From: Amaurobius ferox
Taxonomy: Eukaryota > Arthropoda > Arachnida > Araneae > Amaurobiidae
Assembly (NCBI GenBank): GCA_951213105.1
Contig: OX578145.1
Coordinates: forward strand, 118,713,239 to 118,777,238
Reading direction: 5' to 3'
DNA length: 64,000 nucleotides
Position numbers and translations under genes: made by a program. The notes beneath the pieces are model-generated. The model was given only the letters and a program-made list of their open reading frames with translations. It was not told where the DNA came from and searched no databases. Shown here in pieces: positions 10,761-63,027 of this stretch. Position 1 is the first letter of the stretch. Each line of letters begins with the position of its first letter.

Positions 10761-10770
10761 ATATATATAA
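10748..10770. repeat. (AT)n microsatellite
   Basis: Short AT dinucleotide run just upstream of the reverse transcriptase remnant. Confidence 0.8.
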
Positions 10771-21367: not shown

Positions 21368-21407
<40 letters not shown>

Positions 21408-26660: not shown

Positions 26661-26859
26661 TAAATTTTGTTTTGAGTAATCAAATATCGTAATGAAGTGC
26701 AAGTCTCCAATCAATTTTCTCCGGAATTTATATTCAACATTTGTATATCTATTTATATCACAATCGGTATCAAAGTGAACATTAACTGAAGTACGGCTCA
26801 ATTCGACATTTTGATATCAGAATCCATTTAGTGGTAACTTTTTTTCTTTTTTAAATTTT

Positions 26860-28471: not shown

Positions 28472-29030
28472 ATGATTGCAGTTATAACGTGTTACTCTTC
28501 ACTCTTTAAAGGGCTTAACAAAATCTTTCTATTAATACCATACATGGCAACGTACCCCTGGAGAGATTAATCCCCTCCCCAGAGGGGGATAACGACGTGA
28601 CGAACACAAAAATTGTATCGCGGCTACTTTTGGCAACAATGTTTGAAACTATTAAGCCTCCTGATCATTGAACCATAAATAATCCCTTTTATGCATAACT
28701 ATGTCAAATTTTGTCGTATGCTGCCATGTTAAAAAAGTATAAAATTGTGAGTAAATTTCGAAATTTTCGCTCGAATTAAAAAAAAATTCTATCCAATTTA
28801 GATTTCTCGTTAACAAAGCCGGATATAAAGTTTCGTGAAAATCCAATAGTATTTGTAGCAGCTATTGTGTGCACTAAAGATCGACCACAGACAATCAGAC
28901 ACACAGATGGACATCACTCCAAAAATAGTCTAAACGTGTTCATGAAGTCCTAAAACACATATTGGCATAAAAATCTCGAAATTGAAAATTTCTTGAAAAC
29001 AATACTTTCTCAACAAAATATATGGGAAAG
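28470..29030 (+). repeat. RepB copy 3
   Basis: Same block order as copy 2; it directly truncates the Tc1 remnant at its left edge. Confidence 0.65.
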
Positions 29031-31551: not shown

Positions 31552-31560
31552 TAATATTTT

Positions 31561-31690
31561 TACTTTCCTTATATACATAATGTATAAGGAAAGTATTGTG
31601 ACGGGGTCGAAAATTCGAATTCGAGTTTTCGACGGGAGAGCACGTTTCAAGCATACATGATCACGAATCAAACATTTTTGAAATGATGTC

Positions 31691-31740
<50 letters not shown>

Positions 31741-32513
31741 TCAGTCTGTGGAGACGATAACTGACGAACGAATGGACCGATTCGAACAAAATTTGGTACA
31801 AAAATCACAATCCGTAAACACTGGAAGCCTATTGTTTTTATACGCAATCTAATGTCCAGAACACCTCTAAATTTTCGAATGAAATTTTGAAAAAATCGTC
31901 AAAAGATCAAAACTGCTAATAAAGTTACGAAAATAGACATTTCTTATGTAAATTTTCATTAGAAAACGATTGACATAAATTTTAGAACGCTAACATGAAC
32001 CATTCTAGAGATATTGTACATTTTCAAAAAAATTATCAAAAAGTCATATAAAATAAAAAAAAAATATTTCCTATTGAGAAACATGTTCACTTTTCATATG
32101 TAATACCATGCGATAAATTGGGTGACGTCATTCTCGTGGATCTAGCTCGTTCCATTTATGAAAAAAGATACTTTAAGCAATACTTTTGTATTTGAACGCC
32201 ACTAGTTATTTGTCTGCTGTAAGAATAACTTATTTCTTCGTCCATAACGCTTGGCGAGATTTTGGCGACGAATTTGGCGGAATGTCGCCAACTTGGCGAC
32301 TTTTTGAAATGTTGCCAAATTAACGAAAATCTCGCCAAATGGATACAAATGACGCTAAATCAATGAAAATGACGACTAATTGTCGAAAATTCAATATCTT
32401 GGAAAGAATATTAGTATCTACTATAAGAAAAACCTATTTTTTTTACTGTAAAAGTAGTAAATTCATTACATTATATAAGGAAAGTCATGCGCTGCCCACA
32501 TCAGATTTTTTTA
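31561..32513 (-). repeat. RepA copy 7 (reverse)
   Basis: Complete copy: hairpin 31562-31594, (TG)n at 31690-31738, internal blocks, end GCCCACATCAGATTTTTTT. The 69-codon plus-strand frame at 32339-32548 matches the minus frame at 2669-2914 only because both lie in RepA. Confidence 0.85.
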
Positions 32514-37489: not shown

Positions 37490-38510
37490 GTAGTTTTTTT
37501 TTTAGATTTTGACGATTTTTGCAGGCCATTACGCAAAAAAAAAATTATTATTATTATTATTATGTTTTTTTTTTTTTTTTTTAATTTATTTTTTTTTTTT
37601 ATTATAAATCTTACCAAAATCTAATCAGCACCCGAGTAACCCACATTCAACTATCTGTCAAATTTATGATATTTGGTCAATTATTTTTTCTGCTATAGTA
37701 TACGATTTTTGTGGGTTATTTTGCAAAAAAAAAAGAGGTTCTTTTTTTCCGAATCGTACCAAAATATAATCATCGCAAGTGTAACCCACAAGTGATTTAC
37801 CTATCAAGTTTTATGAAATTTGGTCAATTATATTTTAAAGTGAATAAATAGGCAGACACACACACACACACAGACGTCACACTAAAAATAGTTTTTTTCG
37901 TTTTCTGGGGTGCTCCAAACGTGGTGAATCCGTCGAAAACTCGAGTTTTATTTTCGACATGATTTCAATACTTCCCCTATACATTACCAAGTATTGCAGG
38001 GAAAGTAATAAATAACTTTTTTTTTTCAATTATCTTTTTAACTTTTTACTTTCTCTACAATAATGTATAGCGAAAGTATTGAATCGTGTCTAAAATTGCA
38101 AAGTCAGTCTGTGACGGATCTTCACATTTTGGGACCTCTAGAACACGAAAAAACTATTTTTAACTCGACGTCTGTGTGTGTGTCCACTCTAACTCAAAAA
38201 CTATTTGACCAAATTTCATAAAATTTTATAGATAAGTCACTTGTGGGATACCCTGGTGCTGATTAGATTTTGTTATGGTGCAGGATAAAAGAACCTGCTT
38301 TTTTTTCTTTTCTTTTTTTTTGCGAACAAAAATCGTATTTATCCACTCAAATTAAAAACTAATAAGCCAAATTTCACAAAATTTGGTAGATAAGTCACTT
38401 GTGAGTTACCCTAGTACTGATTAGATTTTGGTACGATTTGTCAAAAAATAACCTACTTTTATTTTGCGAAATGCCCGCAACAGCAACAATCCTCGAAATT
38501 TAATAAAAAC
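37490..38510. repeat. Inverted pair of a second hairpin/microsatellite repeat family
   Basis: The left arm (37500-38007) ends in a (CA)n tract, the block CGTCGAAAACTCGAG and a hairpin. The right arm (38045-38500) begins with a related hairpin (ACTTTCTCTACAATAATG) and carries a short TG tract and the block TAGATAAGTCACTTGTG in inverse order. Block order is the same as RepA but with different sequence. Confidence 0.65.
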
Positions 38511-38544
38511 TTCATCTTCTCAAACGTATCAATTAAATGTTTGT

Positions 38545-38670
38545 TACTTTCCTTATATACATAATGTATAAGGAAAGTATTGTGACGGGGTCGAAAATTC
38601 GAATTCGAGTTTTCGACGGGATAGCACGTTTCAAGCATCCCTGATCACGAATCAAACATTTTTGAAGTGA

Positions 38671-38706
<36 letters not shown>

Positions 38707-39500
38707 TATGTGTGTGTGTGTGTGTGTCAGTGAGTCTGTGGAGACGATAACTGACGAACGCATGGATCGATTCGAACAAAATTTGGAACAAAAATCACAA
38801 TACGTAAACACTGGAAGCCTATTATTTTTATACGCAATCGAATGGTCAGAACCCCCCTAAATTTTCGAGTGAAATTTTAAAAAATTCGTCAAAAAATCAA
38901 AACCGCTAATAAAGTTACGCAAATAGACATTTCTTATGTAGTTTTTCATTAGAAAACGATTTACTTAAATTTTAGAACGCTAACATGAACCGTTCTCGAG
39001 ATATTGCACATTTTTCAAGAAAATTATCAAAAAGTCATATAAAATAAAAAAAAAATATTTCCTATTGAGAAAGATGTTCACTTTTCATATGTAATACCAT
39101 GCGATAAATTGGGTGACATCATTCTCGTGGATCTAGCTCGTTCCATTCATGAAAAAAGATACTTTGAGTAATACTTTTGTATTTGAACGCCAATAGTCAT
39201 TTATCTGCTGTAAGAATAACTTATTTCTCCGTCCATAACACTTGGCGAGATTTTGGCGACGAATTTGGCGGAATGTCGCCAACTTGGCGACATTTTGAAT
39301 TGTTGCCAAATTGACAAAAATCTCGCCAAATGGATAAAAATGACGCTAAATCAATGAAAATGACAACCAATTGTCGAAAATTCAATATCTTGGAAAGCAT
39401 ATAAGTATCTACTAAAAGAATAACATTTTTTTTCCTGTAAAAGTAGTAAATTCATTGCATTATATAAGGAAAGTCATGTGTTGCCCACATCAGATTTTTT
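38545..39500 (-). repeat. RepA copy 8 (reverse)
   Basis: Complete: hairpin 38545-38577, (TG)n 38672-38729, internal blocks, end GCCCACATCAGATTTTTTT. Confidence 0.85.
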
Positions 39501-39833
39501 TATATGTGATTTTTTAATAATGTCCACCCCCATTACTCTATGACTAGCCATTCTCGAACTATTTTAATTTTTTCGCATTTTTGTTATACCGCCTTTGAAA
39601 ATACGCCCCGTTACCAAATGAAAACGAAAATAGAATTAAAAGTGCAAATTCAGGGTAATTTCAAATAATTATGCGTGTTTTCTGTGTAATTTAATGTATT
39701 ATTAAAGAAATAAAGAGAAACTGAATTTGAGTCTCTGGGAAAAATCATTTGCTGCCTATATCAGATTTTTTTATTTCAGATTCAGCAAGTCACATTCCTC
39801 TGAATTCATAATGGAAATATAAACGTCGAACGA

Positions 39834-41289: not shown

Positions 41290-42571
41290 TATATCTTGAG
41301 TAATATACAAAGTTCCTAGGAAAGTCGCTAACAGCCGCAAAAATGACTTTACCAAAATAAAATGTTAGTATGTTGTTGAGACGGTCTGCGAAACATATGG
41401 GAATGTAAATGAATAATATCACTCAATTAGTTTCGGATTGAACCCTAGTTGAAAAAGTGAAATACATCGAACCCTATGGGACCTAATTTTTCAAACATTT
41501 TTTAAACTAAGTTAAAAATCACAAATTGCTTCGAAAATTTTATAGTTCAATTATCCCATAATATATATGTATAAAAAAATCAGCAAAATATGTTTAGTAG
41601 TTTTTCAAATAAAACTTAAAATAATAATTACACCCATATTATATGAAGAGACCCACTTCAAAATAAAATATAGCATCTATCTTTTTTTTTTCCCAGTGTA
41701 AAAATCATAATTTTTAAAGTTCATTTAAATTTTAATTTAGTGTTGCATTCGTCCTAAATCATCTTTATTTTTGCCTATTTTCTGTGCATCTATATTCTGT
41801 GCCAACCCAATTACAATATTTTTTAATATAAATGATCATCAAACTTTGATTAATTCTACAACGAAGCCTAATTTTAATGGATGCAGAAAGTAAACAAGTG
41901 ATTGTAAGATGAGTTGTACAAAAATTGCTGATTTTTTTCACGCAAAATTATTTAGCTCTGGAGTTTGGAATAAAAGTGATTTCAAGATCTCAAGGGAAAT
42001 TTTCTTGGAGCACCTAGCAAACCCGAAGGTTTTGCGTTAATCACCGATCATATAAAATAACGGTTTGTGAAGAAAAAGAGACTTAAAAAAGAGACTCAAA
42101 TAAAACTTAAAATAATAATTACACCCATATTATATGAAGAGACCCACTTCAAAATAAAATATAGCATCTATCTTTTTTTTTTCCCAGTGTAAAAATCATA
42201 ATTTTTAAAGTTCATTTAAATTTTAATTTAGTGTTGCATTCGTCCTAAATCATCTTTATTTTTGCCTATTTTCTGTGCATCTATATTCTGTGCCAACCCA
42301 ATTACAATATTTTTTAATATAAATGATCATCAAACTTTGATTAATTCTACAACGAAGCCTAATTTTAATGGATGCAGAAAGTAAACAAGTGATTGTAAGA
42401 TGAGTTGTACAAAAATTGCTGATTTTTTTCACGCAAAATTATTTAGCTCTGGAGTTTGGAATAAAAGTGATTTCAAGATCTCAAGGGAAATTTTCTTGGA
42501 GCACCTAGCAAACCCGAAGGTTTTGCGTTAATCACCGATCATATAAAATAACGGTTTGTGAAGAAAAAGAG
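41290..42571 (-). repeat. RepE copy 3 with a 476-bp exact tandem duplication
   Basis: 41605-42080 and 42096-42571 appear identical base for base, separated by 15 bp (ACTTAAAAAAGAGAC). Upstream, 41340-41520 matches the RepE block at 23180-23330. No coding capacity in either unit. Confidence 0.85.
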
Positions 42572-43315: not shown

Positions 43316-44267
43316 GAATTTTATAACCTAGAACCACCAGAAACCTTAATGTGAGGCCTTTAATTTTATAACCTAGGACTACCAGAAACCTTAATGTATC
43401 ATCTGTGAGGCCTTTAATTTTATAACCTAGGACTACCAGAAACCTTAATGTATCATCTGTGAGGCCTTTAATTTTATAACCTAGGACTACCAGAAACCTT
43501 AATGTATCATCTGTGAGGCCTTTAATTTTATAACCCAGGACTACCAGAAACCTTAATGTATCATCTGTGAGGCCTTTAATTTTATAACCTAGGACTACCA
43601 GAAACCTTAATGTATCATCTGTGAGGCCTTTAATTTTATAACCTAGGACTACCAGAAACCTTAATGTATCATCTGTGAGGCCTTTAATTTTATAACCCAG
43701 GACTACCAGAAACCTTAATGTATCATCTGTGAGGCCTTTAATTTTATAACCCAGGACCACCAGAAACCTTAATGTATCATCTGTGAGGCCTTTAATTTTA
43801 TAACCTAGGACCACCAGAAATCTTAATGTATCATCTGTGAGGCCTTTAATTTTATAACCTAGGACCACCAGAAACCTTAATGTATCATCTGTGCAGCCTT
43901 TAATTTTATAACCTAGGACCACCAGAAACCTTAATGTATCATCTGTGAGGCCTTTAATTTTATAACCTAGGACCACCAGAAACCTTAATGTATCATCTGT
44001 GAGGCCTTTAATTTTATAACCTAGGACTACCAGAAACCTTAATGTATCATCTGTGAGGCCTTTAATTTTATAACCCAGGACTGCCAGAAACCTTAATGTA
44101 TCATCTGTGAGGCCTTTAATTTTATAACCTAGGACCACCAGAAACCTTAATGTATCATCTGTGAGGCCTTTAATTTTATAACCTAGGACTACCAGAAACC
44201 TTAATGTATCATCTGTGAGGCCTTTAATTTTATAACCCAGGACTACCAGAAACCTTAATGTATCATC
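43316..44267 (-). repeat. 54-bp minisatellite, left array (about 17.5 units)
   Basis: Unit in plus orientation: GTGAGGCCTTTAATTTTATA, then ACCTAGGACYACCAGAAACC, then TTAATGTATCATCT. Because 54 is a multiple of three, the minus strand stays open and reads an 18-residue repeat (TDDTLRFLVVLGYKIKGL). One unit lacks 9 bp (about 43350), removing three residues in frame. Variants are mostly single C/T changes. The array stops exactly where the palindromic element begins and resumes in the same orientation at 56536. Confidence 0.95.
44262..44267 (+). repeat. Left target-site duplication ATCATC
   Basis: Last six bases of the left minisatellite unit. The same six bases begin the right array, so the minisatellite phase overlaps by exactly 6 bp across the insertion. 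Confidence 0.8.
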
Positions 44268-44317
44268 AGTAGTTGTGGAAAGGGTGTTCAAGCCCCGCAG
44301 GAGCAGCAGAGCAGCAG

Positions 44318-44489
44318 TGACGTCACGGAGGATGACGTCATGATGACGTCACGTTATCTTATCTGATCTTATCAGATGACGTCATCGCCTTATCTTATCT
44401 AATCTTTTCAGATAAGCTTATCTTATCGGATGACGTCATCGGCTTATCTTATCGGATGACTCACTCGATAAGATTATTGGCTGACGTCA
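44318..44489. promoter_or_regulatory. Left-tip cluster of six TGACGTCA sites with GATAAG motifs
   Basis: Perfect TGACGTCA octamers at 44318, 44333, 44344, 44377, 44431 and 44482, interleaved with many TTATC/GATAA words, several forming short inverted pairs. TGACGTCA is the CRE consensus bound by CREB/ATF bZIP factors. It could equally be a binding site for the element's own recombinase. Confidence 0.75.
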
Positions 44490-44519
44490 TGTACTGAGAC
44501 AGACAGTGAAGAAGACCTT

Positions 44520-44533
44520 GGCGGCCATCTTGG
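44520..44533 (-). promoter_or_regulatory. YY1/Pho-like site, left arm
   Basis: GGCGGCCATCTTGG is the inverse of CCAAGATGGCCGCC, close to the YY1/Pleiohomeotic consensus with AAGATGGC. Mirrored at about 56270-56283. Confidence 0.5.
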
Positions 44534-44597
44534 AAATTTTGGTGGCGCCCTCTATGGACAGATTGGAGAACTGTGTTGGCTAAAAGGAAAGAATTGG

Positions 44598-44673
44598 TTC
44601 TGGACTGAGCTGGATTCGAACTGGGGACCCCTTGCACCGTAGGAGAGTGCTTTAACCACTATACAGTTTGAGA
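44598..44673 (-). repeat. tRNA-like Pol III promoter sequence, left arm
   Basis: On the minus strand, TATAGTGGTTAAAGC resembles box A and AGTTCGAATCC closely matches box B, about 40 nt apart. Acceptor and T-stem pairing is poor, so this is a tRNA relic or SINE head rather than a functional tRNA. Confidence 0.55.
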
Positions 44674-45190
44674 CTTGTTAGCAGATGCTGAATGAATGAT
44701 ATCTTTCCTGCGAAAGGAGTTGGGTACTTAGAATATTTTCTGAACTTCTACGAGGGGATAGTTCGAGTGAATTAAGATTTTAATTCATTTTTAATAAATG
44801 AATAAAATATATTATGAAAAAAAAAATGGAATATAGTCATAATTGAATTTTAATAAGAGGATTATTTTTTTAATGATTGGAACGTGGGTAATTAATTTTA
44901 TTATGGAATGGTTTAGAAAGTACTTGAAGATATTTACGAAAGTTTAGATGACGATGATGGCGCCATCTATTGGCACTTGAATGAAATACATGCGACGAAT
45001 TTTAATAGAATTAATTTCGAGTGAGGTTTTTGTGTTCTTTTAATTCGATAGTCGAACGATGACTTCATAATTTTAGCTTCACACTCATACATGTTTTAAT
45101 GAAGATAATTAATTTTTTTATACATTGACCGTTCATCAGAATTTTAAGGATGGGATGTGTGTTATTGAATTTTATTCATTTGAATAAAAT
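44674..45190. other. AT-rich arm sequence
   Basis: No coding signal. Contains the perfect palindrome GATGGCGCCATC at about 44957-44968, the core of a YY1-like word. Confidence 0.5.
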
Positions 45191-45713
45191 GATTTTTGGG
45201 ATATTTTTGAATGAAGTAATGGGGGATTTCTATAGCGAACTAGCATATCGCATGTTTGATGTTACCACAAGTTGGGAACAGGATTTGACCCTTTTAGAAG
45301 AGGTGTATCAGCCAAGATTTATGTTTCAAAACCCTGCAAGATTTTAGGGATCGGTTATACTACTCGCTGAACACGTTTCGACAATTTTTTCAGCTAACAA
45401 GAATGCATTCATGGAGTTCTACGATGAATTTCCTGATAATATAGTAAAAGTACTATGCACGATTTTTTTTACATCCTTTTAAAATTTTACATGCTACTAA
45501 ACACGAATGGACTATTTTTTTTTTCGGTGGCCCATAAATTTTTCGCAAACTCATTCCTGAAAGAAACGTGATTAATACACATCATTAAAAAAACTTGCTT
45601 TTTAAACTTACCATGACTCTCACAGCTGAAAAACAAAACATACATTAAAAATTATAATACCAGAAACTTGTTAAATAATATACATTGATAGTAACAAATA
45701 TTTATTTTTTAGG

Positions 45714-45759
45714 TTTGAGCCCACCATCCACCCGGTGTCTTTGCACCGCCTCAAACCTT
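45714..45759. ncRNA. Hairpin module 1, left arm
   Basis: GGTTTGAG at one end pairs with CTCAAACC at the other (8 bp). Inside, CGGTG pairs with CACCG. Module 2 preserves the same structure. Transcription is not shown; the call rests on structure conservation. Confidence 0.4.
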
Positions 45760-46014
45760 GTACATTTTTTTTTTTAAATCTTCTTTTAAAGTTCATCATG
45801 ATTTGCTCTTTTAAAATTACAAATATGCAAAATGATTGTAACATTTTTTTTTTTTCTTTAATGTACAATACTTTTAAAAGTTTGTAAATCTTCTTTTCAA
45901 TTTTTTCAGGACTTGTCTATTTTAGTCATGTAAAACAAATATCACATTTTTTTTTTCTTTACATAAAGTCCTTCATAGCAAAATGAATTTGAAAAAAAAA
46001 ATATTTTTTTTTTA

Positions 46015-46060
46015 GGTTTAAGCCCACCATCCACCCGGTGTCTTCGCACCGCCTCAAACC
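46015..46060. ncRNA. Hairpin module 2, left arm
   Basis: Same structure as module 1, but one stem strand reads GGTTTAAG against CTCAAACC. On the opposite strand this becomes GGTTTGAG with CTTAAACC, a G-U instead of a G-C pair, so pairing survives in an RNA made from the minus strand. The loop differs by one base. Confidence 0.4.
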
Positions 46061-46399
46061 TTGTACGTTTTTTTTTTTAATTTTCTTTTCAAATTTTTGA
46101 ATGATGGAATGGGGGATTTCTAACACTCCATAGCGAACTAGCATATCGCATGTTCGGTGTTGCCACAAGTTGGGAACAGGATTTGACCCTTTTAGAAGAG
46201 GTGTGTGTGCGCGTATACCAGCCATGATTCATGTTTCAAAACCCTGCAAGATTTTAATGCTAGGTTATAATACTCACAAAATATGACTCGACCCTTTTTC
46301 AGAATGATTGTGTGTGCCACGCGATTTTTTTTATGACAAGTATCAGAACCTGCTGAATCCGTATCGACTGTTTTTTTAGCTATGAAAATTGGCTGTATT

Positions 46400-48028
46400 G
46401 ATTTCTTTTCAAATATATGGGAAATTCAAGACTTTGCTATATTGAAGGACGTAGTTAAAATGAATAGGTGTACTGAATTATCAGTAAATGGAATAATTGG
46501 GATATATTTTTAAAATGCAGAGTACTGAAAGCTTCACAAGTTAATGTTGTACACAGATGTGACTTGCATATGTATTGTGACATGGATGTTCTTACCAATG
46601 TCTTCTGAAAAGGGAATCCATATTATTTTGAAAAGTATACTAGGCTACTTTAAAGTATCCTCTAAAATGTTATACATTAGAAAAAAAAATGGCGCTAAGA
46701 TACTATTGAGTGAATTTTAAGTGAATAGAGGACTCATGAATTTTAGAGTACTTGGATGATTTCGGTATAAATAGATCGGTTTAATTATGTTAAGTGCGTT
46801 GCTAATTAATTTTTTAAAGCTAAGACACTAATGAGTGAATTTTGTGACAAATTTTCAGTGTTAGGGTTTAAATGATGTTAGCGACAAACATTATATGAAG
46901 AATTGAATGTTTACGGAATACACAGTATGATCATTATTTTTTTTGACGCTGAGATATTAATGAATTTTAATTGAGTTCTAAAAATGAGGTAAATTTAACT
47001 GTAAAGAGTGAAATAGTGTATCTCATCCATGATTTTAACGATATACCGCATTGTATACGATTTAACCATTTTTAAAGTGAGGTATGTAATTTTAGCATCG
47101 AAGTTTAGAATTTAACAAGCTAAGGAACACGAATCGATCATTTTTACAGACATGAGCGTATTTTACTATTTTACCGAATTGTGTGCTTCTTAGCGAATGT
47201 TTGATGAACTAGGAGTTTTTTTTTTAATCTTACACAAGGCCTATGACTCCTTTATCGCTTAAAATTATAGCATTTAATTTAAATTTAGCAAAAATTACTC
47301 GACACATAGTGCATGTTCGAGGAATTAGAAGTATGTGTTTTTTTTTTTTTTTTTTTTCGATATTCGATATTCCAAGAGGTCTAAGACCCTAAAATTTCAT
47401 GAATTTAGTGAATTGTTTGGTTCTTAGCATATGTTTGGGGAACTAAGAATGAATTTTTTAATGTTACATAAGCCGTAAGACTCCTTTAGCGCTTAAAATT
47501 ATGATTTTTTAATAAAATTTGCAAAAATTGCACAATACTTAGTGGATAATTACTGAATAAGAGATATGTTTTTAATGTTACAACAACATCTAAAGCCCTT
47601 AAATCGGTATATTTTTAAAATTGTCATGAATTTTAGGGGAATAGAATATCACTTAACGATTTTTTTTTAAGGACATGCGATTGTCAACATTGAATTTAAA
47701 TGAAAGACTGACCCTCTAGGCCAAGTGTAGTACATTGTAATAATATTAAAATATGAAAGATATGCATTTAACACTTTAAAAGAAACATGTAATAATGAGT
47801 TTTGATATCTTAATAGGAGACATTATTAACATACAAATAGGAATATCATGATCTCGCGGCTGTAGGTGCACCATAAAATCATTCAATTCATAATGAATGT
47901 CCACATTTGAATGTACATATTTAACAACACCTGGAAAATGATAGGGCGAAACTGAGACAAAATTTTACACTTCCTACGAAATAAATCCCAACTTCGTAGA
48001 CTTTTAGGAAACTAGGGCTGAATTTTCA
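46400..48028. repeat. AT-rich degenerate direct repeats, left arm
   Basis: Variants of TTAGCG, GAATTTTAG and CTCCTTTAxCGCTTAAAATT recur. The last is at about 47247 and 47491, a spacing of about 244 bp. No coding capacity. Mirrored at about 52776-54400. Confidence 0.5.
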
Positions 48029-48048
48029 CCTATTCTTAGAGATTGAAA

Positions 48049-48102
48049 GGCCCAGACCACCCGACCAACCCTAAAGCTTACGGTAACTAACTCTGTGGCC
48101 GA
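48049..48102 (-). mobile_element. 54-bp SINE-tail insertion, left arm
   Basis: Flanked by 20-bp direct repeats (48029-48048 and 48103-48122, CCTATTCTTAGAGATTGAAA). Its content (CCCAGACCACCCGACCAACC) is a diverged version of the host SINE tail. The identical insertion in the other arm shows it was present before the arms were copied or homogenised. Confidence 0.75.
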
Positions 48103-48337
48103 CCTATTCTTAGAGATTGAAACACCACATTCTTTATAAATCTTCATACTTTTAGAGAATGGAACATAACTTAGCATTTATTTTTAGTGAATAAGGGTAT
48201 ATAATTTCAGAATTTTAACACTGAATATAAATTTTATAAATTAATCTCTGTAAAGTGCAAATATCGTTCATTACGAAACTCACACTGTAAACATTTTATA
48301 TGATTCGAATAAATTTATTTTTAATTTTTTTTTGTAT

Positions 48338-48343
48338 TTTATT
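48338..48343 (-). terminator. Candidate poly(A) signal, left gene
   Basis: AATAAA on the minus strand about 208 bp after the stop codon of the left gene. Mirrored at 52464-52469. Confidence 0.45.
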
Positions 48344-48550
48344 TTAAAAAGCGATATTAGTAAACCTATTATACTTGAATGTATAGATACATAACCTACG
48401 AGCACATAGCATTTTTAAATAAAACATGTTAAAAATGAGTTGATGAACGTAAATAAGGAGTTCACTTTGAAAGATAAAAATCCATTTAATGAATCTATTC
48501 TTCATAAAATACACATTAAGCATTATTTGTTGCACATTTAATCAAACAAG

Positions 48551-49666
48551 TTAAAATAATTTCCTTATCGCACATTCATAGTCCTCTGATTTAAATGACT
48601 TGAAAAAATTTCGATCATACCAGTAAAAGACTTCTTCACCACGCAACAAAACTTTCTTTGCTATGTTATTAATGTCAAGATTTAGAAGTACCTGTTCAGC
48701 CACTCTGTTGTACATTTCTAATGGAGTACTGTAAAGACATTCGTGGTAACTTTGTTCTTCAATTTGACTAACACAGCCAACACATTTGAAAAGTTTTCTT
48801 ACATGATACATCATGCTCTCATGAATACAAGAGATTAATTGTTCGAATGCAAAATTTTTGTCACAAATAACTGATGGTAGAAAGGTTATCGTGTCCTTTA
48901 TTTTTAATATTTGAGCAGGAAGCCACTCTAGAAATATACTTTCTCGAAGTTCCATACTAATGTTGTTGACACAATTCAGTAAACATGCTATTTGATTTTT
49001 ATCTAAGGTAATATGACACTGCGTTAGACAAAATTTTGAATCATATAATTGAATTATCTTCTGTAAATGAAGTTTTCCATTGTCATTGAAACAGAACAAC
49101 TCATTGCGACTGACGAAAGTGGTATCCGCATATAGACTATTGAACGACCACAATTTTTGTGAAAATTCACTCCAAGTAGCAGGTGACAATGTAACCCATT
49201 CCCGCGTAGGCACTAGTTCATTTCGTTCGTTAGAGATATATCTCCATATATACACTTTTAGCTTCTCATGGCGAAGTTTCAAATATACATAGACACCAGA
49301 ACCTAAATGCCAACGACGGAGTGCATCTTGCACGGAATCTGAAGAAGTAAATTCAGTCGAAACAGATTCTGTAGTGGTGGCTAACACTCCGCTGTGTGTT
49401 AGAGCACAAGAAAGCAGATCTTGAGATGAGTTTCCGACGTCGGTGAGGACTTGTGAATCGGCAGTGGTAGGTGTTTCTGCTGGGGGTATGGAAGACATAA
49501 GATTGGTGTCTAACCAATCCACCACAAAGTTTGATGAAGGTGAATTAATCACATTTGAGACGATATCCACAGATTTTGTTTCATCTAGGGTAGGAACCGA
49601 CATCTCCACACTATTTCCACTAGAAATTAACTGTTCGAGTGATGGCATACTTTGAATTTTAGACAT
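48551..49666 (-). CDS. Tandem PC4-like, Cys/His-cluster protein (left copy)
   Basis: 371 codons from the first ATG (49666; G at -3). The frame is open upstream, but only a GTG lies there (49702). Residues 1-115 are Ser/Thr-rich and look disordered. Residues 119-175 (VYVYLKLRHEKLKVYIWRY, then WVTLSPATWSEF) follow the strand-strand-helix pattern of the PC4/p15 single-stranded-DNA-binding fold. Residues 188-240 (KLHLQKIIQLYD, then CHITLDKNQI) look like a second, more diverged module. C295, C298, H308 and C310 form CxxC-x9-HxC, a possible zinc knuckle. The C-terminal 60 residues are of unknown fold. Single exon, transcribed outward from the element centre. A plausible role is ssDNA binding during element replication or transcription; that is inference. 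Confidence 0.8.
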   Translation of the reverse strand: MSKIQSMPSLEQLISSGNSVEMSVPTLDETKSVDIVSNVINSPSSNFVVDWLDTNLMSSIPPAETPTTADSQVLTDVGNSSQDLLSCALTHSGVLATTTESVSTEFTSSDSVQDALRRWHLGSGVYVYLKLRHEKLKVYIWRYISNERNELVPTREWVTLSPATWSEFSQKLWSFNSLYADTTFVSRNELFCFNDNGKLHLQKIIQLYDSKFCLTQCHITLDKNQIACLLNCVNNISMELRESIFLEWLPAQILKIKDTITFLPSVICDKNFAFEQLISCIHESMMYHVRKLFKCVGCVSQIEEQSYHECLYSTPLEMYNRVAEQVLLNLDINNIAKKVLLRGEEVFYWYDRNFFKSFKSEDYECAIRKLF

Positions 49667-49702
49667 TACTTGCAGATAATAACATCCAAGTACAACATTC
49701 AC

Positions 49703-50385
49703 AGTATAAGATTTATTTTTAAAACACTATGATCTTAAAATACTATAAATTTCTCGCAGCTATGAACGAACCGAACCTATCCACGCAACGTCCAAGGTTG
49801 AAATGGCTTATCGGACCACGTCATAAGACTAATCACGTGACCTAAATAGAGTGTCGTGTGCAAATAGATTACATAAGATAAGACATGAAGGGGTTAGAAC
49901 TTGTAATTTTCAATGAATCGCACAACATCGGTTTGTGTCAAGCGCAATTGTTATCTACGTGGGAGACTGTCTACATTATTTTATTCATCTTCGAAATCAT
50001 AAAGTGGAAATATGTACCAAACTTAGTTAAAATTCATAATTTTTAATCACACTATCATTAAATACATAGGAAAATTTTGTATATTTTTATATCTTTAGGG
50101 GATATGCTTACCACATCGCACAGAATATACAAGAATAGTTAGCAAAAACATGAAAATAAACTTACAGAATGAGGTCTTCACCAGCCGACATCCAAACCCT
50201 AACTGCAATACTAAAATGAGAGCTTATCTTATCTAAGATCTAACATATGATGACGTCATCGGTCCAAAGTTCACAAGATGGCGTCATAGTCCAAAGCAGA
50301 TCTTTCTTAATTACTTATTTTTTAATTACGGCTTATTGTTTTAATTACTCCCTATTTTTAATTACTGCTTAATTTTTATAATTAT
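49703..50385 (-). promoter_or_regulatory. Left half of shared divergent promoter region
   Basis: 680 bp between the left gene and the centre. Holds TGACGTCA (50251-50258), AAGATGGCG (50275-50283, YY1-like), a TCACGTGAC E-box (about 49833) and ATTACTTA/TTAATTAC words near the axis. Because arms mirror each other, the two genes share one divergent control region. Confidence 0.55.
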
Positions 50386-50421
50386 GAATAGGTGATCATA
50401 AGTAATTACTGCTTAATTTTT
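50386..50421. other. 36-bp spacer at the axis of the large palindrome
   Basis: The only sequence not mirrored between arms. Its right half repeats arm sequence (TAATTACTGCTTAATTTTTA), so it forms a second, nested palindrome with the right arm. Confidence 0.85.
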
Positions 50422-50448
50422 ATAATTATAAAAATTAAGCAGTAATTA
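50403..50448. repeat. Nested perfect 46-bp palindrome at the element centre
   Basis: TAATTACTGCTTAATTTTTA meets its exact complement around ATAATTAT (50422-50429). It is offset by 22 bp from the axis of the 12-kb palindrome, so two alternative fold points exist. Confidence 0.9.
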
Positions 50449-51104
50449 AAAATAGGGAGTAATTAAAACAATAAGCCGTAATTAAAAAATAAGTAATTAA
50501 GAAAGATCTGCTTTGGACTATGACGCCATCTTGTGAACTTTGGACCGATGACGTCATCATATGTTAGATCTTAGATAAGATAAGCTCTCATTTTAGTATT
50601 GCAGTTAGGGTTTGGATGTCGGCTGGTGAAGACCTCATTCTGTAAGTTTATTTTCATGTTTTTGCTAACTATTCTTGTATATTCTGTGCGATGTGGTAAG
50701 CATATCCCCTAAAGATATAAAAATATACAAAATTTTCCTATGTATTTAATGATAGTGTGATTAAAAATTATGAATTTTAACTAAGTTTGGTACATATTTC
50801 CACTTTATGATTTCGAAGATGAATAAAATAATGTAGACAGTCTCCCACGTAGATAACAATTGCGCTTGACACAAACCGATGTTGTGCGATTCATTGAAAA
50901 TTACAAGTTCTAACCCCTTCATGTCTTATCTTATGTAATCTATTTGCACACGACACTCTATTTAGGTCACGTGATTAGTCTTATGACGTGGTCCGATAAG
51001 CCATTTCAACCTTGGACGTTGCGTGGATAGGTTCGGTTCGTTCATAGCTGCGAGAAATTTATAGTATTTTAAGATCATAGTGTTTTAAAAATAAATCTTA
51101 TACT
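50422..51104 (+). promoter_or_regulatory. Right half of shared divergent promoter region
   Basis: Mirror of 49703-50385: TGACGTCA at 50549-50556, inverse AAGATGGCG at about 50524-50532, E-box GTCACGTGA at about 50967, and TTTTAAAAATAAATC just before the open frame. Confidence 0.55.
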
Positions 51105-51140
51105 GTGAATGTTGTACTTGGATGTTATTATCTGCAAGTA

Positions 51141-52256
51141 ATGTCTAAAATTCAAAGTATGCCATCACTCGAACAGTTAATTTCTAGTGGAAATAGTGTG
51201 GAGATGTCGGTTCCTACCCTAGATGAAACAAAATCTGTGGATATCGTCTCAAATGTGATTAATTCACCTTCATCAAACTTTGTGGTGGATTGGTTAGACA
51301 CCAATCTTATGTCTTCCATACCCCCAGCAGAAACACCTACCACTGCCGATTCACAAGTCCTCACCGACGTCGGAAACTCATCTCAAGATCTGCTTTCTTG
51401 TGCTCTAACACACAGCGGAGTGTTAGCCACCACTACAGAATCTGTTTCGACTGAATTTACTTCTTCAGATTCCGTGCAAGATGCACTCCGTCGTTGGCAT
51501 TTAGGTTCTGGTGTCTATGTATATTTGAAACTTCGCCATGAGAAGCTAAAAGTGTATATATGGAGATATATATCTAACGAACGAAATGAACTAGTGCCTA
51601 CGCGGGAATGGGTTACATTGTCACCTGCTACTTGGAGTGAATTTTCACAAAAATTGTGGTCGTTCAATAGTCTATATGCGGATACCACTTTCGTCAGTCG
51701 CAATGAGTTGTTCTGTTTCAATGACAATGGAAAACTTCATTTACAGAAGATAATTCAATTATATGATTCAAAATTTTGTCTAACGCAGTGTCATATTACC
51801 TTAGATAAAAATCAAATAGCATGTTTACTGAATTGTGTCAACAACATTAGTATGGAACTTCGAGAAAGTATATTTCTAGAGTGGCTTCCTGCTCAAATAT
51901 TAAAAATAAAGGACACGATAACCTTTCTACCATCAGTTATTTGTGACAAAAATTTTGCATTCGAACAATTAATCTCTTGTATTCATGAGAGCATGATGTA
52001 TCATGTAAGAAAACTTTTCAAATGTGTTGGCTGTGTTAGTCAAATTGAAGAACAAAGTTACCACGAATGTCTTTACAGTACTCCATTAGAAATGTACAAC
52101 AGAGTGGCTGAACAGGTACTTCTAAATCTTGACATTAATAACATAGCAAAGAAAGTTTTGTTGCGTGGTGAAGAAGTCTTTTACTGGTATGATCGAAATT
52201 TTTTCAAGTCATTTAAATCAGAGGACTATGAATGTGCGATAAGGAAATTATTTTAA
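51141..52256 (+). CDS. Tandem PC4-like, Cys/His-cluster protein (right copy)
   Basis: Encodes the same 371 residues as the left copy; the one base change noticed is silent. Start at the ATG at 51141 because the upstream 12 codons begin with GTG. Two intact, silently diverged copies mean either recent duplication, ongoing gene conversion between arms or selection on the protein. The PC4 family (general transcription coactivator p15, and phage and organelle relatives) binds single-stranded DNA as a dimer, so tandem modules in one chain could give a self-contained binding unit. The CxxC-x9-HxC cluster is not part of canonical PC4. No neighbour gene exists in the arm. A viral or transposon origin is more likely than host, because the gene sits inside a target-duplicated insertion. 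Confidence 0.8.
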   Translation: MSKIQSMPSLEQLISSGNSVEMSVPTLDETKSVDIVSNVINSPSSNFVVDWLDTNLMSSIPPAETPTTADSQVLTDVGNSSQDLLSCALTHSGVLATTTESVSTEFTSSDSVQDALRRWHLGSGVYVYLKLRHEKLKVYIWRYISNERNELVPTREWVTLSPATWSEFSQKLWSFNSLYADTTFVSRNELFCFNDNGKLHLQKIIQLYDSKFCLTQCHITLDKNQIACLLNCVNNISMELRESIFLEWLPAQILKIKDTITFLPSVICDKNFAFEQLISCIHESMMYHVRKLFKCVGCVSQIEEQSYHECLYSTPLEMYNRVAEQVLLNLDINNIAKKVLLRGEEVFYWYDRNFFKSFKSEDYECAIRKLF

Positions 52257-52463
52257 CTTGTTTGATTAAATGTGCAACAAATAATGCTTAATGTGTATTT
52301 TATGAAGAATAGATTCATTAAATGGATTTTTATCTTTCAAAGTGAACTCCTTATTTACGTTCATCAACTCATTTTTAACATGTTTTATTTAAAAATGCTA
52401 TGTGCTCGTAGGTTATGTATCTATACATTCAAGTATAATAGGTTTACTAATATCGCTTTTTAA

Positions 52464-52469
52464 AATAAA
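52464..52469 (+). terminator. Candidate poly(A) signal, right gene
   Basis: AATAAA 207 bp after the stop codon, followed by A-rich sequence. The 63-codon frame between (52272-52463) is probably 3' UTR. Confidence 0.45.
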
Positions 52470-52701
52470 ATACAAAAAAAAATTAAAAATAAATTTATTC
52501 GAATCATATAAAATGACAGTGTGAGTTTCGTAATGAACGATATTTGCACTTTACAGAGATTAATTTATAAAATTTATATTCAGTGTTAAAATTCTGAAAT
52601 TATATACCCTTATTCACTAAAAATAAATGCTAAGTTATGTTCCATTCTCTAAAAGTATGAAGATTTATAAAGAATGTGGTGTTTCAATCTCTAAGAATAG
52701 G

Positions 52702-52755
52702 TCGGCCACAGAGTTAGTTACCGTAAGCTTTAGGGTTGGTCGGGTGGTCTGGGCC
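52702..52755 (+). mobile_element. 54-bp SINE-tail insertion, right arm
   Basis: Flanked by 20-bp direct repeats (52682-52701 and 52756-52775, TTTCAATCTCTAAGAATAGG). Contains GGTTGGTCGGGTGGTCTGGG, diverged from the host SINE tail GGTAGGTCGGACGGTCTGGG. No tRNA head, so it is 5'-truncated or a stand-alone tail. Confidence 0.75.
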
Positions 52756-52775
52756 TTTCAATCTCTAAGAATAGG

Positions 52776-54400
52776 TGAAAATTCAGCCCTAGTTTCCTAA
52801 AAGTCTACGAAGTTGGGATTTATTTCGTAGGAAGTGTAAAATTTTGTCTCAGTTTCGCCCTATCATTTTCCAGGTGTTGTTAAATATGTACATTCAAATG
52901 TGGACATTCATTATGAATTGAATGATTTTATGGTGCACCTACAGCCGCGAGATCATGATATTCCTATTTGTATGTTAATAATGTCTCCTATTAAGATATC
53001 AAAACTCATTATTACATGTTTCTTTTAAAGTGTTAAATGCATATCTTTCATATTTTAATATTATTACAATGTACTACACTTGGCCTAGAGGGTCAGTCTT
53101 TCATTTAAATTCAATGTTGACAATCGCATGTCCTTAAAAAAAAATCGTTAAGTGATATTCTATTCCCCTAAAATTCATGACAATTTTAAAAATATACCGA
53201 TTTAAGGGCTTTAGATGTTGTTGTAACATTAAAAACATATCTCTTATTCAGTAATTATCCACTAAGTATTGTGCAATTTTTGCAAATTTTATTAAAAAAT
53301 CATAATTTTAAGCGCTAAAGGAGTCTTACGGCTTATGTAACATTAAAAAATTCATTCTTAGTTCCCCAAACATATGCTAAGAACCAAACAATTCACTAAA
53401 TTCATGAAATTTTAGGGTCTTAGACCTCTTGGAATATCGAATATCGAAAAAAAAAAAAAAAAAAACACATACTTCTAATTCCTCGAACATGCACTATGTG
53501 TCGAGTAATTTTTGCTAAATTTAAATTAAATGCTATAATTTTAAGCGATAAAGGAGTCATAGGCCTTGTGTAAGATTAAAAAAAAAACTCCTAGTTCATC
53601 AAACATTCGCTAAGAAGCACACAATTCGGTAAAATAGTAAAATACGCTCATGTCTGTAAAAATGATCGATTCGTGTTCCTTAGCTTGTTAAATTCTAAAC
53701 TTCGATGCTAAAATTACATACCTCACTTTAAAAATGGTTAAATCGTATACAATGCGGTATATCGTTAAAATCATGGATGAGATACACTATTTCACTCTTT
53801 ACAGTTAAATTTACCTCATTTTTAGAACTCAATTAAAATTCATTAATATCTCAGCGTCAAAAAAAATAATGATCATACTGTGTATTCCGTAAACATTCAA
53901 TTCTTCATATAATGTTTGTCGCTAACATCATTTAAACCCTAACACTGAAAATTTGTCACAAAATTCACTCATTAGTGTCTTAGCTTTAAAAAATTAATTA
54001 GCAACGCACTTAACATAATTAAACCGATCTATTTATACCGAAATCATCCAAGTACTCTAAAATTCATGAGTCCTCTATTCACTTAAAATTCACTCAATAG
54101 TATCTTAGCGCCATTTTTTTTTCTAATGTATAACATTTTAGAGGATACTTTAAAGTAGCCTAGTATACTTTTCAAAATAATATGGATTCCCTTTTCAGAA
54201 GACATTGGTAAGAACATCCATGTCACAATACATATGCAAGTCACATCTGTGTACAACATTAACTTGTGAAGCTTTCAGTACTCTGCATTTTAAAAATATA
54301 TCCCAATTATTCCATTTACTGATAATTCAGTACACCTATTCATTTTAACTACGTCCTTCAATATAGCAAAGTCTTGAATTTCCCATATATTTGAAAAGAA
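52776..54400. repeat. AT-rich degenerate direct repeats, right arm
   Basis: Mirror of 46400-48028; includes an A-run at 53446-53465. No coding capacity. Confidence 0.5.
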
Positions 54401-54542
54401 ATCAATACAGCCAATTTTCATAGCTAAAAAAACAGTCGATACGGATTCAGCAGGTTCTGATACTTGTCATAAAAAAAATCGCGTGGCACACACAATCATT
54501 CTGAAAAAGGGTCGAGTCATATTTTGTGAGTATTATAACCTA

Positions 54543-55600
54543 GCATTAAAATCTTGCAGGGTTTTGAAACATGAATCATGGCTGGTATACGCGCACACAC
54601 ACCTCTTCTAAAAGGGTCAAATCCTGTTCCCAACTTGTGGCAACACCGAACATGCGATATGCTAGTTCGCTATGGAGTGTTAGAAATCCCCCATTCCATC
54701 ATTCAAAAATTTGAAAAGAAAATTAAAAAAAAAAACGTACAAGGTTTGAGGCGGTGCGAAGACACCGGGTGGATGGTGGGCTTAAACCTAAAAAAAAAAT
54801 ATTTTTTTTTTCAAATTCATTTTGCTATGAAGGACTTTATGTAAAGAAAAAAAAAATGTGATATTTGTTTTACATGACTAAAATAGACAAGTCCTGAAAA
54901 AATTGAAAAGAAGATTTACAAACTTTTAAAAGTATTGTACATTAAAGAAAAAAAAAAAATGTTACAATCATTTTGCATATTTGTAATTTTAAAAGAGCAA
55001 ATCATGATGAACTTTAAAAGAAGATTTAAAAAAAAAAATGTACAAGGTTTGAGGCGGTGCAAAGACACCGGGTGGATGGTGGGCTCAAACCTAAAAAATA
55101 AATATTTGTTACTATCAATGTATATTATTTAACAAGTTTCTGGTATTATAATTTTTAATGTATGTTTTGTTTTTCAGCTGTGAGAGTCATGGTAAGTTTA
55201 AAAAGCAAGTTTTTTTAATGATGTGTATTAATCACGTTTCTTTCAGGAATGAGTTTGCGAAAAATTTATGGGCCACCGAAAAAAAAAATAGTCCATTCGT
55301 GTTTAGTAGCATGTAAAATTTTAAAAGGATGTAAAAAAAATCGTGCATAGTACTTTTACTATATTATCAGGAAATTCATCGTAGAACTCCATGAATGCAT
55401 TCTTGTTAGCTGAAAAAATTGTCGAAACGTGTTCAGCGAGTAGTATAACCGATCCCTAAAATCTTGCAGGGTTTTGAAACATAAATCTTGGCTGATACAC
55501 CTCTTCTAAAAGGGTCAAATCCTGTTCCCAACTTGTGGTAACATCAAACATGCGATATGCTAGTTCGCTATAGAAATCCCCCATTACTTCATTCAAAAAT
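54543..55600. repeat. Duplicated modules and two hairpins, right arm
   Basis: Mirror of 45205-46265. Hairpin modules lie at 54743-54788 (GGTTTGAG with CTTAAACC, containing a G-U pair) and 55044-55089 (GGTTTGAG with CTCAAACC). The 88-, 65- and 65-codon frames here are these duplicated modules. Confidence 0.7.
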
Positions 55601-56129
55601 ATCCCAAAAATCATTTTATTCAAATGAATAAAATTCAATAACACACATCCCATCCTTAAAATTCTGATGAACGGTCAATGTATAAAAAAATTAATTATCT
55701 TCATTAAAACATGTATGAGTGTGAAGCTAAAATTATGAAGTCATCGTTCGACTATCGAATTAAAAGAACACAAAAACCTCACTCGAAATTAATTCTATTA
55801 AAATTCGTCGCATGTATTTCATTCAAGTGCCAATAGATGGCGCCATCATCGTCATCTAAACTTTCGTAAATATCTTCAAGTACTTTCTAAACCATTCCAT
55901 AATAAAATTAATTACCCACGTTCCAATCATTAAAAAAATAATCCTCTTATTAAAATTCAATTATGACTATATTCCATTTTTTTTTTCATAATATATTTTA
56001 TTCATTTATTAAAAATGAATTAAAATCTTAATTCACTCGAACTATCCCCTCGTAGAAGTTCAGAAAATATTCTAAGTACCCAACTCCTTTCGCAGGAAAG
56101 ATATCATTCATTCAGCATCTGCTAACAAG
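55601..56129. other. AT-rich arm sequence
   Basis: Mirror of 44674-45200; nothing coding. Confidence 0.5.
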
Positions 56130-56205
56130 TCTCAAACTGTATAGTGGTTAAAGCACTCTCCTACGGTGCAAGGGGTCCCCAGTTCGAATCCAGCTCAGTC
56201 CAGAA
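56130..56205 (+). repeat. tRNA-like Pol III promoter sequence, right arm
   Basis: Box A-like TATAGTGGTTAAAGC at 56140-56154 and box B-like AGTTCGAATCC at 56181-56191. Stems do not pair as a tRNA. Oriented toward the tip, so a Pol III transcript would run into the TGACGTCA cluster. Confidence 0.55.
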
Positions 56206-56313
56206 CCAATTCTTTCCTTTTAGCCAACACAGTTCTCCAATCTGTCCATAGAGGGCGCCACCAAAATTTCCAAGATGGCCGCCAAGGTCTTCTTCACTGT
56301 CTGTCTCAGTACA

Positions 56314-56485
56314 TGACGTCAGCCAATAATCTTATCGAGTGAGTCATCCGATAAGATAAGCCGATGACGTCATCCGATAAGATAAGCTTATCTGAAAAGA
56401 TTAGATAAGATAAGGCGATGACGTCATCTGATAAGATCAGATAAGATAACGTGACGTCATCATGACGTCATCCTCCGTGACGTCA
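56314..56485. promoter_or_regulatory. Right-tip cluster of six TGACGTCA sites with GATAAG motifs
   Basis: Mirror of 44318-44489 with all six octamers intact. Confidence 0.75.
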
Positions 56486-56535
56486 CTGCTGCTCTGCTGC
56501 TCCTGCGGGGCTTGAACACCCTTTCCACAACTACT

Positions 56536-56920
56536 ATCATCTGTGAGGCCTTTAATTTTATAACCCAGGACCACCAGAAACCTTAATGTATCATCTGTGA
56601 GGCCTTTAATTTTATAACCTAGGACCACCAGAAACCTTAATGTATCATCTGTGAGGCCTTTAATTTTATAACCTAGGACTACCAGAAACCTTAATGTATC
56701 ATCTGTGAGGCCTTTAATTTTATAACCTAGGACTACCAGAAACCTTAATGTATCATCTGTGAGGCCTTTAATTTTATAACCCAGGACTACCAGAAACCTT
56801 AATGTATCATCTGTGAGGCCTTTAATTTTATAACCCAGGACTACCAGAAACCTTAATGTATCATCTGTAAGGCCTTTAATTTTATAACCTAGGACCACCA
56901 AAAACCTTAATGCATCACTG
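56536..56920 (-). repeat. 54-bp minisatellite, right array (about 7 units), including right ATCATC duplication
   Basis: Starts ATCATCTGTGAGG at 56536, continuing the left array in the same orientation after a 6-bp overlap. The rightmost unit is the most diverged (CACCAAAAACC, TGCATC), as expected at an array edge. Confidence 0.95.
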
Positions 56921-61689: not shown

Positions 61690-63027
61690 TACACTCACGG
61701 ACAATGAAAGTTGTGCACCAAGAAGAAAACATGGTAAAACCGCGAAATGATGTAACTAACTAGAGGGCGTGCTGGTATGCAAATGATCCCAGTCTGGTGG
61801 GATTGCGCATGACCGTACATCCGTGAGTGGCGCTGCAAACATAAGCTAGCGAACTTATAAACCGGCGTGTAGTCGACGCCCCATCAATGCGAGAAGCTTC
61901 GGCCAGCGCAAGCACGAGTACGGAGTGAAAAGAATGGTGGGTAGACGCCAGAAACGTCGATATACGCAACTGACGGACTTCGAGAGAGGCATGAAAATCG
62001 CAGTGTGGTCAGCGCGCCGGATAGCCCATCACGTGGATCGGTCGGACTATACCGTCCGACGGTGTTGGGAGCACTGGTCACGGGACGCCACCCAGACACG
62101 GAGGACGGTCGAATGATCGTGCGGCAGGCACTTATAGAGTCCACGGCGACCCGATCCTCGATACAGGCACACGTAGCGGCTCCTGTGTACCCACGAACCA
62201 TATCTAGATGCCTGAAGGAAGCGAACCTTACGTGTGCTGCCGTTAACACGGGAACATCGGCGACTCCGGTTGCAATGGTGCTGGGCCAGCATCGTGGAAC
62301 GTCACATATTGGCGATGTGTAGTGTTTAGCGATGAGTGCCGCTTCGTTTTATGGACCGATGATCAGCGTGTTCGGATGTAGAGGTGCACAACGCCACAAT
62401 CCCAACCTCGTTATCGAGCGCTACACCAGTCCCACTGCGGGCATCATGGGCTGGGGAGCCATAGCCTACGACAGTCGATCCGCTCTAGTAGTGGTACCTG
62501 GAACGTTGACGGGCCAGCGGTACGTGGATGAGATTCTACTGCCCCATGTGCTCCCAGTCGTTGCTGGGATTCCAGGTGCGCAATTCCAGCAGGATAATGC
62601 CCGGCCGCACACGGCTCGGGTCGCCCTGGCCTGCCTGAGCCATGCCCAGACACTTCCATGGCCTGCTCGCTCCCCAGACCTGTCTCCTATCGAGCATGTG
62701 TGGGACTAGTTGAAACGCCAGCTGCCTCGTTGCCGCAATCTTCGGGATATGGAACGTAACGTCCAACAGGTGTGGACTCGTCTGCCGCAGGACAACATTA
62801 GGCACCTGTTCGACACCATGCCGAACCGTATTGCTACTTGTATCGCGGCACGAGGCGGTGCGATGAGGATGACCGGACTGTGTACCACAGCTTCCTCTGT
62901 ACGTGTTCTACTGCGCTGTTTTTGTGATCATGTTGTATATCATTCATCTATATCCTTCCATCAATAAAATTTCAGGTCCATCCTATGCTTCCTTCTTAGT
63001 GTGGAACTTTCACTGTCCGTGAGTGTA
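61690..63027 (+). mobile_element. Full-length Tc1-like element
   Basis: Termini CACTCACGGACAATGAAAGT (61692) and the inverse ending 63025, flanked by TA. At 1334 bp it is a normal length for a Tc1 family element, with markedly higher GC than the surroundings, suggesting fairly recent arrival compared with other elements here. Confidence 0.9.
61934..62937 (+). pseudogene. Tc1-like DDE transposase, frameshifted
   Basis: The N-terminal frame from 61934 (MVGRRQKRRYTQLTDFERG, then DYTVRRCWEHWSRD) resembles the helix-turn-helix DNA-binding half. It shifts near 62100 to a frame with RSSIQAHVAAPVYPRTISRC. FSDECRF, carrying the first catalytic Asp, is present in yet another frame at about 62326-62346. 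The C-terminal frame has AQFQQDNARPHTARVAL (second Asp) and ARSPDLSPIEHVWD (Glu). It is followed by TAG (62707) where Gln is usual, then LKRQLPRCRNLRDM. All three catalytic residues survive but on broken frames, so the protein is not made intact. Confidence 0.85.

Follow-up and report, generated by a model that had tools for sequence, protein, structure and literature searches.

A palindrome of more than 12 kb raises the question of what kind of element it is and how it came to lie in a chromosome of Amaurobius ferox. In the 64,000-nucleotide stretch of contig OX578145.1 analysed here (the window), the near-perfect palindrome was confirmed at positions 44268–56535 and measures 12,268 bp.

Extent, borders and insertion site

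When the window is aligned to its own reverse complement by blastn, the palindrome is recovered over 44268–56535 with 99.8% identity in 12274 columns, and the runner-up inverted pair in the window covers 1002 columns at 86% (blastn, E 1e-10). The inverted arms of about 6.1 kb and the 36-bp spacer described in the first-pass annotation were found again (Table 1), and outside the centre the arms agree in 6113 of 6114 aligned bases apart from two short indels. The differences are a 1-bp indel in a T-run (47338), an AAA present in the left arm only (48289–48291) and one substitution (49235). In all, 36 of the 12,268 bp lie unpaired in the centre, and the sequence consists almost entirely of long inverted repeats in the manner of Foldback and Galileo elements. 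An arm has no match in the rest of the window (blastn, E 1e-3, low-complexity filter on). Two other palindromes in the window, 272–1037 with TTAA ends and 37727–38306 with A/T runs, were considered as members of the same family and rejected.

The inverted repeat is limited exactly by AGTAGT...ACTACT, at 44268 and 56535, with the left border between ...AATGTATCATC and AGTAGTTGTGG and the right border between CCACAACTACT and ATCATCTGTGAGG. The bases just beyond it, C on the left and A on the right, are non-complementary, and the inverted repeat thus stops precisely at the start of the ATCATC duplication. The insertion site is located inside a 54-bp minisatellite, and joining the flanks with a single ATCATC gives an unbroken 54-bp unit, i.e. 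the empty site is restored. The exact limits and the duplication within the minisatellite therefore indicate that the whole palindrome was integrated as a unit, and the earlier claim to this effect is supported by the borders, the 6-bp duplication and the restored unit.

In assembled sequence, nearly identical arms could also come from a fold-back that caused a single arm to be read or assembled a second time. However, in a folded read the flanks would be mirrored as well, whereas here the mirror stops exactly at the 6-bp target site duplication (TSD), after which the minisatellite continues in unchanged orientation and is followed by a different unique sequence on the right. One substitution and two indels also distinguish the arms, and the centre is not symmetric, although single differences could be errors as well. 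Since the flanks are unmirrored and a TSD is present, a simple fold-back read is unlikely, and we consider an assembly artefact very improbable.

Mavericks are recognised by (AGT)2//(ACT)2 or (AG)3//(CT)3 ends, and (AGT)2//(ACT)2 with 6-bp TSDs is the commonest end type described in vertebrate Mavericks/Polintons (PMC8097293). AGTAGT and ACTACT stand at the palindrome limits, flanked on either side by ATCATC as a perfect 6-bp TSD. Judged from the sequence, the locus is a whole-element palindrome with (AGT)2//(ACT)2 ends and a 6-bp TSD that look like those of Mavericks/Polintons. The G+C content of the first 500 bp of the left arm is 0.45, and the G+C-richer terminal part is a candidate end/origin region. 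The 21-base element end was not found in viral_contigs.

Table 1. Coordinates of the features of the palindrome in the window.
Feature	Position	Strand	Remarks
Target site duplication, left copy	44262..44267	.	ATCATC, 6 bp
Left arm	44268..50385	.	6118 bp, starts with AGTAGTTGTGGAAAG
G+C-richer terminal part, left arm	44268..44560	.	six TGACGTCA and three CTTATCTTATC motifs
AT-rich outer arm, left	44700..48550	.	diverged internal direct repeats, no reading frame beyond chance
371-aa gene, left copy	48551..49666	-	weak PC4-like domain; directed outward from the centre
Asymmetric spacer at axis	50386..50421	.	36 bp; axis between 50403 and 50404
Off-axis perfect palindrome	50403..50448	.	46 bp
Right arm	50422..56535	.	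6114 bp, ends with CTTTCCACAACTACT
371-aa gene, right copy	51141..52256	+	same protein as left copy, one silent difference
Target site duplication, right copy	56536..56541	.	ATCATC, 6 bp

Coding content of the arms

Each arm contains one intact gene for a 371-aa protein, which is the sole gene recognised, and the substitution between the two copies is silent (ATC/ATA). The protein has two database relatives, P0001 and P0002, one with 56% identity and one with 50%, each at 99% query coverage, and repeated searches returned the same two proteins every time. No relatives were found in phages, none was confirmed among 7 and 45 pattern matches in viral_contigs or among 184 in genome_contigs, and PHROGs gave weak matches only (best E 0.027). 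The PC4 domain of Pfam (PF02229) was detected in P0002 with E 0.0016 and 18.4 bits, under the Pfam cut-off of 25 bits, and Pfam gave no match to it for P0001 or the protein of the window. A PDB search for the PC4-like domain gave E 0.18 with the sequence alone and E 0.012 as a profile. The AlphaFold model has a mean pLDDT of 32.5, too poor to serve as support; in Foldseek its first 8 rows were PC4 homologues (best E 0.015), and no match at E 0.001 or better was obtained for it by Foldseek against the PDB. The similarities are a weak indication of a PC4-like domain, a fold that binds single-stranded DNA (ssDNA).

In the outermost 4.3 kb of both arms no reading frame exceeds chance length, and a coding function was rejected for this part, the longest stop-free run (89 aa) being matched in 57 of 100 dinucleotide shuffles. 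Diverged direct repeats are found in the left outer arm at 45203–45389 and 46093–46299 (80%), 45693–45793 and 45996–46095 (91%), and 47160–47340 and 47394–47573 (74%). There are 95 stop-free runs of at least 30 aa that overlap 44200–50480, and 10 stop-free left-arm pieces scanned in addition to the 371-aa gene contained no Pfam family at the cut-off (best E 0.091). Rfam gave no match at the gathering score in the whole window and one chance-level snoRNA match in the left arm (22 bits versus 45, E 0.91), and ARAGORN found no tRNA.

None of the Maverick core genes (protein-primed DNA polymerase, integrase, ATPase, protease, capsid) was recognised by Pfam in the 371-aa gene or the 10 left-arm pieces, and a literature search found no paper that mentions both Polintons and PC4. 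Both results would suit an element of another superfamily that has AGTAGT ends and a 6-bp TSD by chance, as would the basis of the assignment to Mavericks, namely the ends and the TSD length. Against this, the hexamer, its mirror at the opposite end and the TSD length all match the commonest Maverick type described, and Ginger, the nearest integrase-type family checked, differs in both respects with TGTNR ends and 4-bp TSDs, or 5-bp TSDs in TDD-4 and TDD-5 (PMC2836005). An origin unrelated to Mavericks appears quite unlikely.

The centre and the origin of the palindrome

The first 27 nt of the off-axis 46-bp palindrome are a repeat of 50359–50385, and 17 nt (50386–50402) separate the two copies. 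Folded as ssDNA, the region 50330–50480 reaches -56.5 kcal/mol, against -11.1 on average for shuffled sequences (z -18.8). The off-axis palindrome and the repeated 27-mer are consistent with a fold-back of the copied strand at a short, AT-rich palindrome, accompanied or followed by a loss of exact symmetry. In mouse-derived cells palindromes are about 25-fold stabler when the central symmetry is broken, and 93% of 118 palindrome rearrangements were deletions (PMC8701086).

An element with very long terminal inverted repeats (TIRs) could also have reached this structure by internal deletion, if the TIRs grew to 6.1 kb by expansion or gene conversion and the unique core shrank to 36 bp. The arms do contain diverged internal direct repeats, and Galileo copy 112, as described, resembles the end point of such a route (PMC4168063). 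However, the centre is a perfect 46-bp palindrome with no remnant of a recognisable core, and a deletion would therefore need endpoints that exactly create that palindrome, while the 6113/6114 identity of the arms requires recent copying or conversion. We regard this route as possible but rather unlikely.

The explanation we prefer, and to which we give about an even chance, is that a non-autonomous mobile element whose ends are of Maverick/Polinton type has integrated here, as a snap-back product inserted by an integrase acting in trans. The palindrome itself is probably the result of a strand that doubled back during replication and served as its own template. For Mavericks, replication by protein priming is inferred. 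Their end repeats are considered to serve jumping back (PMC8097293), and the ends of the palindrome might likewise serve protein-primed replication in which jumping back would use the repeated AGT triplet, with the machinery supplied in trans. A strand copied from one end would turn round at TTTTTATAATTATAAAAA, a short AT-rich palindrome with its axis at 50425.5, and copy itself back to the starting end, so that both ends of the element would be one and the same end. A snap-back should leave two copies of a single parental end that meet at a small palindrome, and this is what the sequence shows. Slippage between AT-rich repeats, during the turn-round or later, could have left the duplicated 27 nt with the 17-nt filler between the copies, and by breaking the exact symmetry might have made the palindrome easier to keep in the chromosome. 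The product, carrying at each end the signals for origin and integration, would then be inserted whole, its ends being substrates for a Maverick-like integrase provided in trans, and the product of the 371-aa gene may bind the single strands exposed by strand displacement. Head-to-head duplication of a linear element by snap-back, as proposed in the first-pass annotation, remains the best-fitting origin and gains support from the 46-bp palindrome and the duplicated 27-mer; that account stands for the palindrome and its integration as a unit, but had missed the Maverick/Polinton-type ends and TSD and the gene with relatives in each arm.

If this explanation is true, the locus is an integrated fossil of a protein-primed replication error with the fold-back point still readable, a snap-back molecule can keep both ends and be accepted for integration, and near-perfect 12-kb palindromes can enter and persist in an animal-type chromosome given an asymmetric centre. 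It would also point to single-gene satellites living on Mavericks. A standing class of Maverick satellites with self-complementary genomes is a speculative and unlikely extension, in which the displaced strand would fold into 6 kb of duplex closed by a 36-nt loop, one end would suffice as origin, both arms would carry a single ssDNA-binding (PC4-like) gene, and polymerase, integrase and perhaps capsid would come from a helper; both protein relatives would then belong to the same class.

Comparison with known systems

The small foldback transposon Tc4 of C. elegans is almost all inverted repeat, and palindromic defective genomes are found in adenovirus, which is protein-primed. The layout was at first thought to have no described family, but precedents exist in Galileo copy 112 (PMC4168063) and in the snap-back genomes of AAV (PMC8235507). 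Copy 112 of Drosophila willistoni (9021 bp, TIRs of 4246 and 4680 bp), a Foldback-like element of the P superfamily, resembles the palindrome in being nearly all TIR, with identical TSDs, repeats inside the TIRs and no transposase segment (PMC4168063). It differs in belonging to another superfamily and in its unequal arms with many indels, the section that describes the copy reports no gene, and most Galileo copies have a 7-bp TSD as against 6 bp here. AAV produces symmetric snap-back genomes, self-complementary from one end, as well as forms with an asymmetric loop, but these were seen in particles of a parvovirus with ITRs and hairpin replication, and the paper suggests end joining, not template switching, as their cause (PMC8235507).

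Vertebrate Mavericks/Polintons share with the palindrome the (AGT)2//(ACT)2 ends, the perfect 6-bp TSD and the kilobase scale. Titles and abstracts, in literature mostly outside subscription journals, revealed no palindromic Maverick/Polinton. Intact vertebrate elements are 12,723–24,620 bp with TIRs of 46–1447 bp (PMC8097293), and the palindrome, at 12,268 bp, is just under that minimum, whereas its 6.1-kb arms are far above the TIR range; the whole element is formed by its arms, and no core gene was recognised in it. Its genes are directed away from the centre, while most vertebrate Mavericks described have two inward modules, and in this respect it resembles the cane toad elements, in which the genes also point away.

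Structure of the palindrome and other repeats in the window

The inverted repeat at 44268–56535 is real and complete, as the two arms taken together cover the whole of it in a repeat search of the window, and in the self-comparison they constitute by far the longest inverted pair (12274 columns, the second having 1002 columns at 86%). In the arm alignment 6113 of 6114 bases agree, excluding a 1-bp indel in a T run and an AAA indel, and the only substitution is silent within the gene, which bears out the near-perfect palindrome described in the first-pass annotation. The element starts with AGTAGT and finishes with ACTACT, the limits of the repeat coincide exactly with these ends, and ATCATC adjoins on both flanks. 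Once the element and one ATCATC are removed, the flanks join into a normal unit of the 54-bp minisatellite, whose listed units number 17 on the left side and about 7 on the right. Given the exact borders flanked by ATCATC and the restored unit, the whole palindrome entered as a single unit, as had been proposed. A folded-read artefact is unlikely, since the flank should then be mirrored and is not.

Features of the element and of the surrounding window
Feature	Position	Strand	Remarks
Left arm	44268–50385		6118 bp
Right arm	50422–56535		6114 bp
371-aa gene, left copy	48551–49666	-	reads outward
371-aa gene, right copy	51141–52256	+	reads outward
Central short palindrome	50403–50448		perfect, 46 bp, axis 50425.5
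tRNA-like stretch	44605–44677	-	mirrored in right arm
Smaller full palindrome	272–1037		766 bp, arms 87%, TTAA ends
Diverged palindrome	37727–38306		72%, ends are A/T runs
Tandem pair	41605–42571		491-bp copies, identity 100%
DDE_3 remnant	28208–28498	-	E 1.4e-5
DDE_3 remnant	61850–62967	+	E 3.4e-4
Penelope-like stretch	9673–10811	-
Interspersed repeat, about 0.9 kb	2741–4623, 21250–22212, 25677–26661, 31556–32512, 38541–39501		both orientations, 86–93% identity

Elsewhere in the window, the smaller full palindrome is probably a foldback MITE, and the tandem pair reflects a very recent duplication or one made in the assembly. The DDE_3 matches are broken remnants of Tc1/mariner-type transposases, both under the Pfam cut-off. 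Together with the microsatellites, these remnants suggest a eukaryotic host, probably an animal. On visual inspection the reading frames at 9673–10811 resemble a Penelope-like reverse transcriptase, with no Pfam support. The interspersed repeat contains (AC)n/(GT)n tracts.

Coding capacity of the arms

The 391-aa stop-free run of the gene far exceeds the expectation from 100 shuffles of that stretch (mean 82, maximum 134). Repeated protein searches returned two database relatives and no others, P0001 with 56% and P0002 with 50% identity, both aligned over 99% of the window protein, and all three share an MS start. PC4 is a single-strand-binding fold, and residues about 115–170 resemble it with E values of 0.18 (single sequence) and 0.012 (profile). 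P0002 has a Pfam PC4 match under the cut-off (E 0.0016), while P0001 and the window protein have none. The structure model is of low quality (pLDDT 32.5); PC4 homologues take the first eight places among its PDB matches, with E 0.015 or worse. The product is likely, though unproven, to be PC4-like.

The outer arm carries diverged internal repeats and no reading frame beyond chance, the longest being 89 aa and matched by 57 of 100 shuffles. Six TGACGTCA and three CTTATCTTATC motifs lie close to the arm end, and one of each (50251, 50223) is found again upstream of the gene, close to the centre, where they might be part of a two-way promoter. The tRNA-like stretch has by eye A-box-like and B-box-like (GTTCGAATCC) sequences and is perhaps a SINE remnant; neither ARAGORN nor Rfam calls it.

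Centre and proposed origin

The axis of the large palindrome falls between 50403 and 50404, beside that of the separate 46-bp palindrome, whose first 27 bases repeat 50359–50385 with 17 bases between the copies. On folding, the central strand gives a long hairpin (z -18.8). The layout of the centre is most simply explained by an original turn-round at the short palindrome, without a spacer, with repeat slippage producing the present asymmetry then or later; as a net change, one side may have gained 44 bp or the other may have lost sequence. Broken symmetry is reported to stabilise palindromes in mouse-derived cells, where deletions are most of the events (PMC8701086). Protein-primed copying would begin from one end of the element, the strand would turn round at the short central palindrome and be copied back to its starting end, and an integrase supplied in trans would insert the palindrome. 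Snap-back genomes are known for AAV, for which the authors prefer end joining (PMC8235507).

Element ends and relation to known families

According to Barreat and Katzourakis, the commonest end motif of vertebrate Mavericks is 5' (AGT)2 with 3' (ACT)2, the target duplications are 6 bp long, and repetition of the motif would be used for jumping back during protein-primed replication (PMC8097293). The element agrees with the motif letter for letter and with the duplication length, whereas Ginger is described with TGTNR ends and 4-bp duplications (5-bp in TDD-4/5) (PMC2836005), and the ends are therefore classed as Maverick-type. The element itself is not named a Maverick, because no Maverick core gene was recognised in it, its length falls a little under that of the shortest intact vertebrate Maverick, and each of its arms is four times as long as the longest vertebrate Maverick TIR given in PMC8097293. 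It is a palindrome with Maverick-type ends and one gene per arm, a more specific description than the first reading. The main rival explanation is that an element with very long TIRs lost its core, and Galileo copy 112, reported as nearly all TIR like the present element, indicates that elements consisting almost wholly of TIR do occur (PMC4168063); the layout, earlier thought to be without a described family, thus has a precedent.
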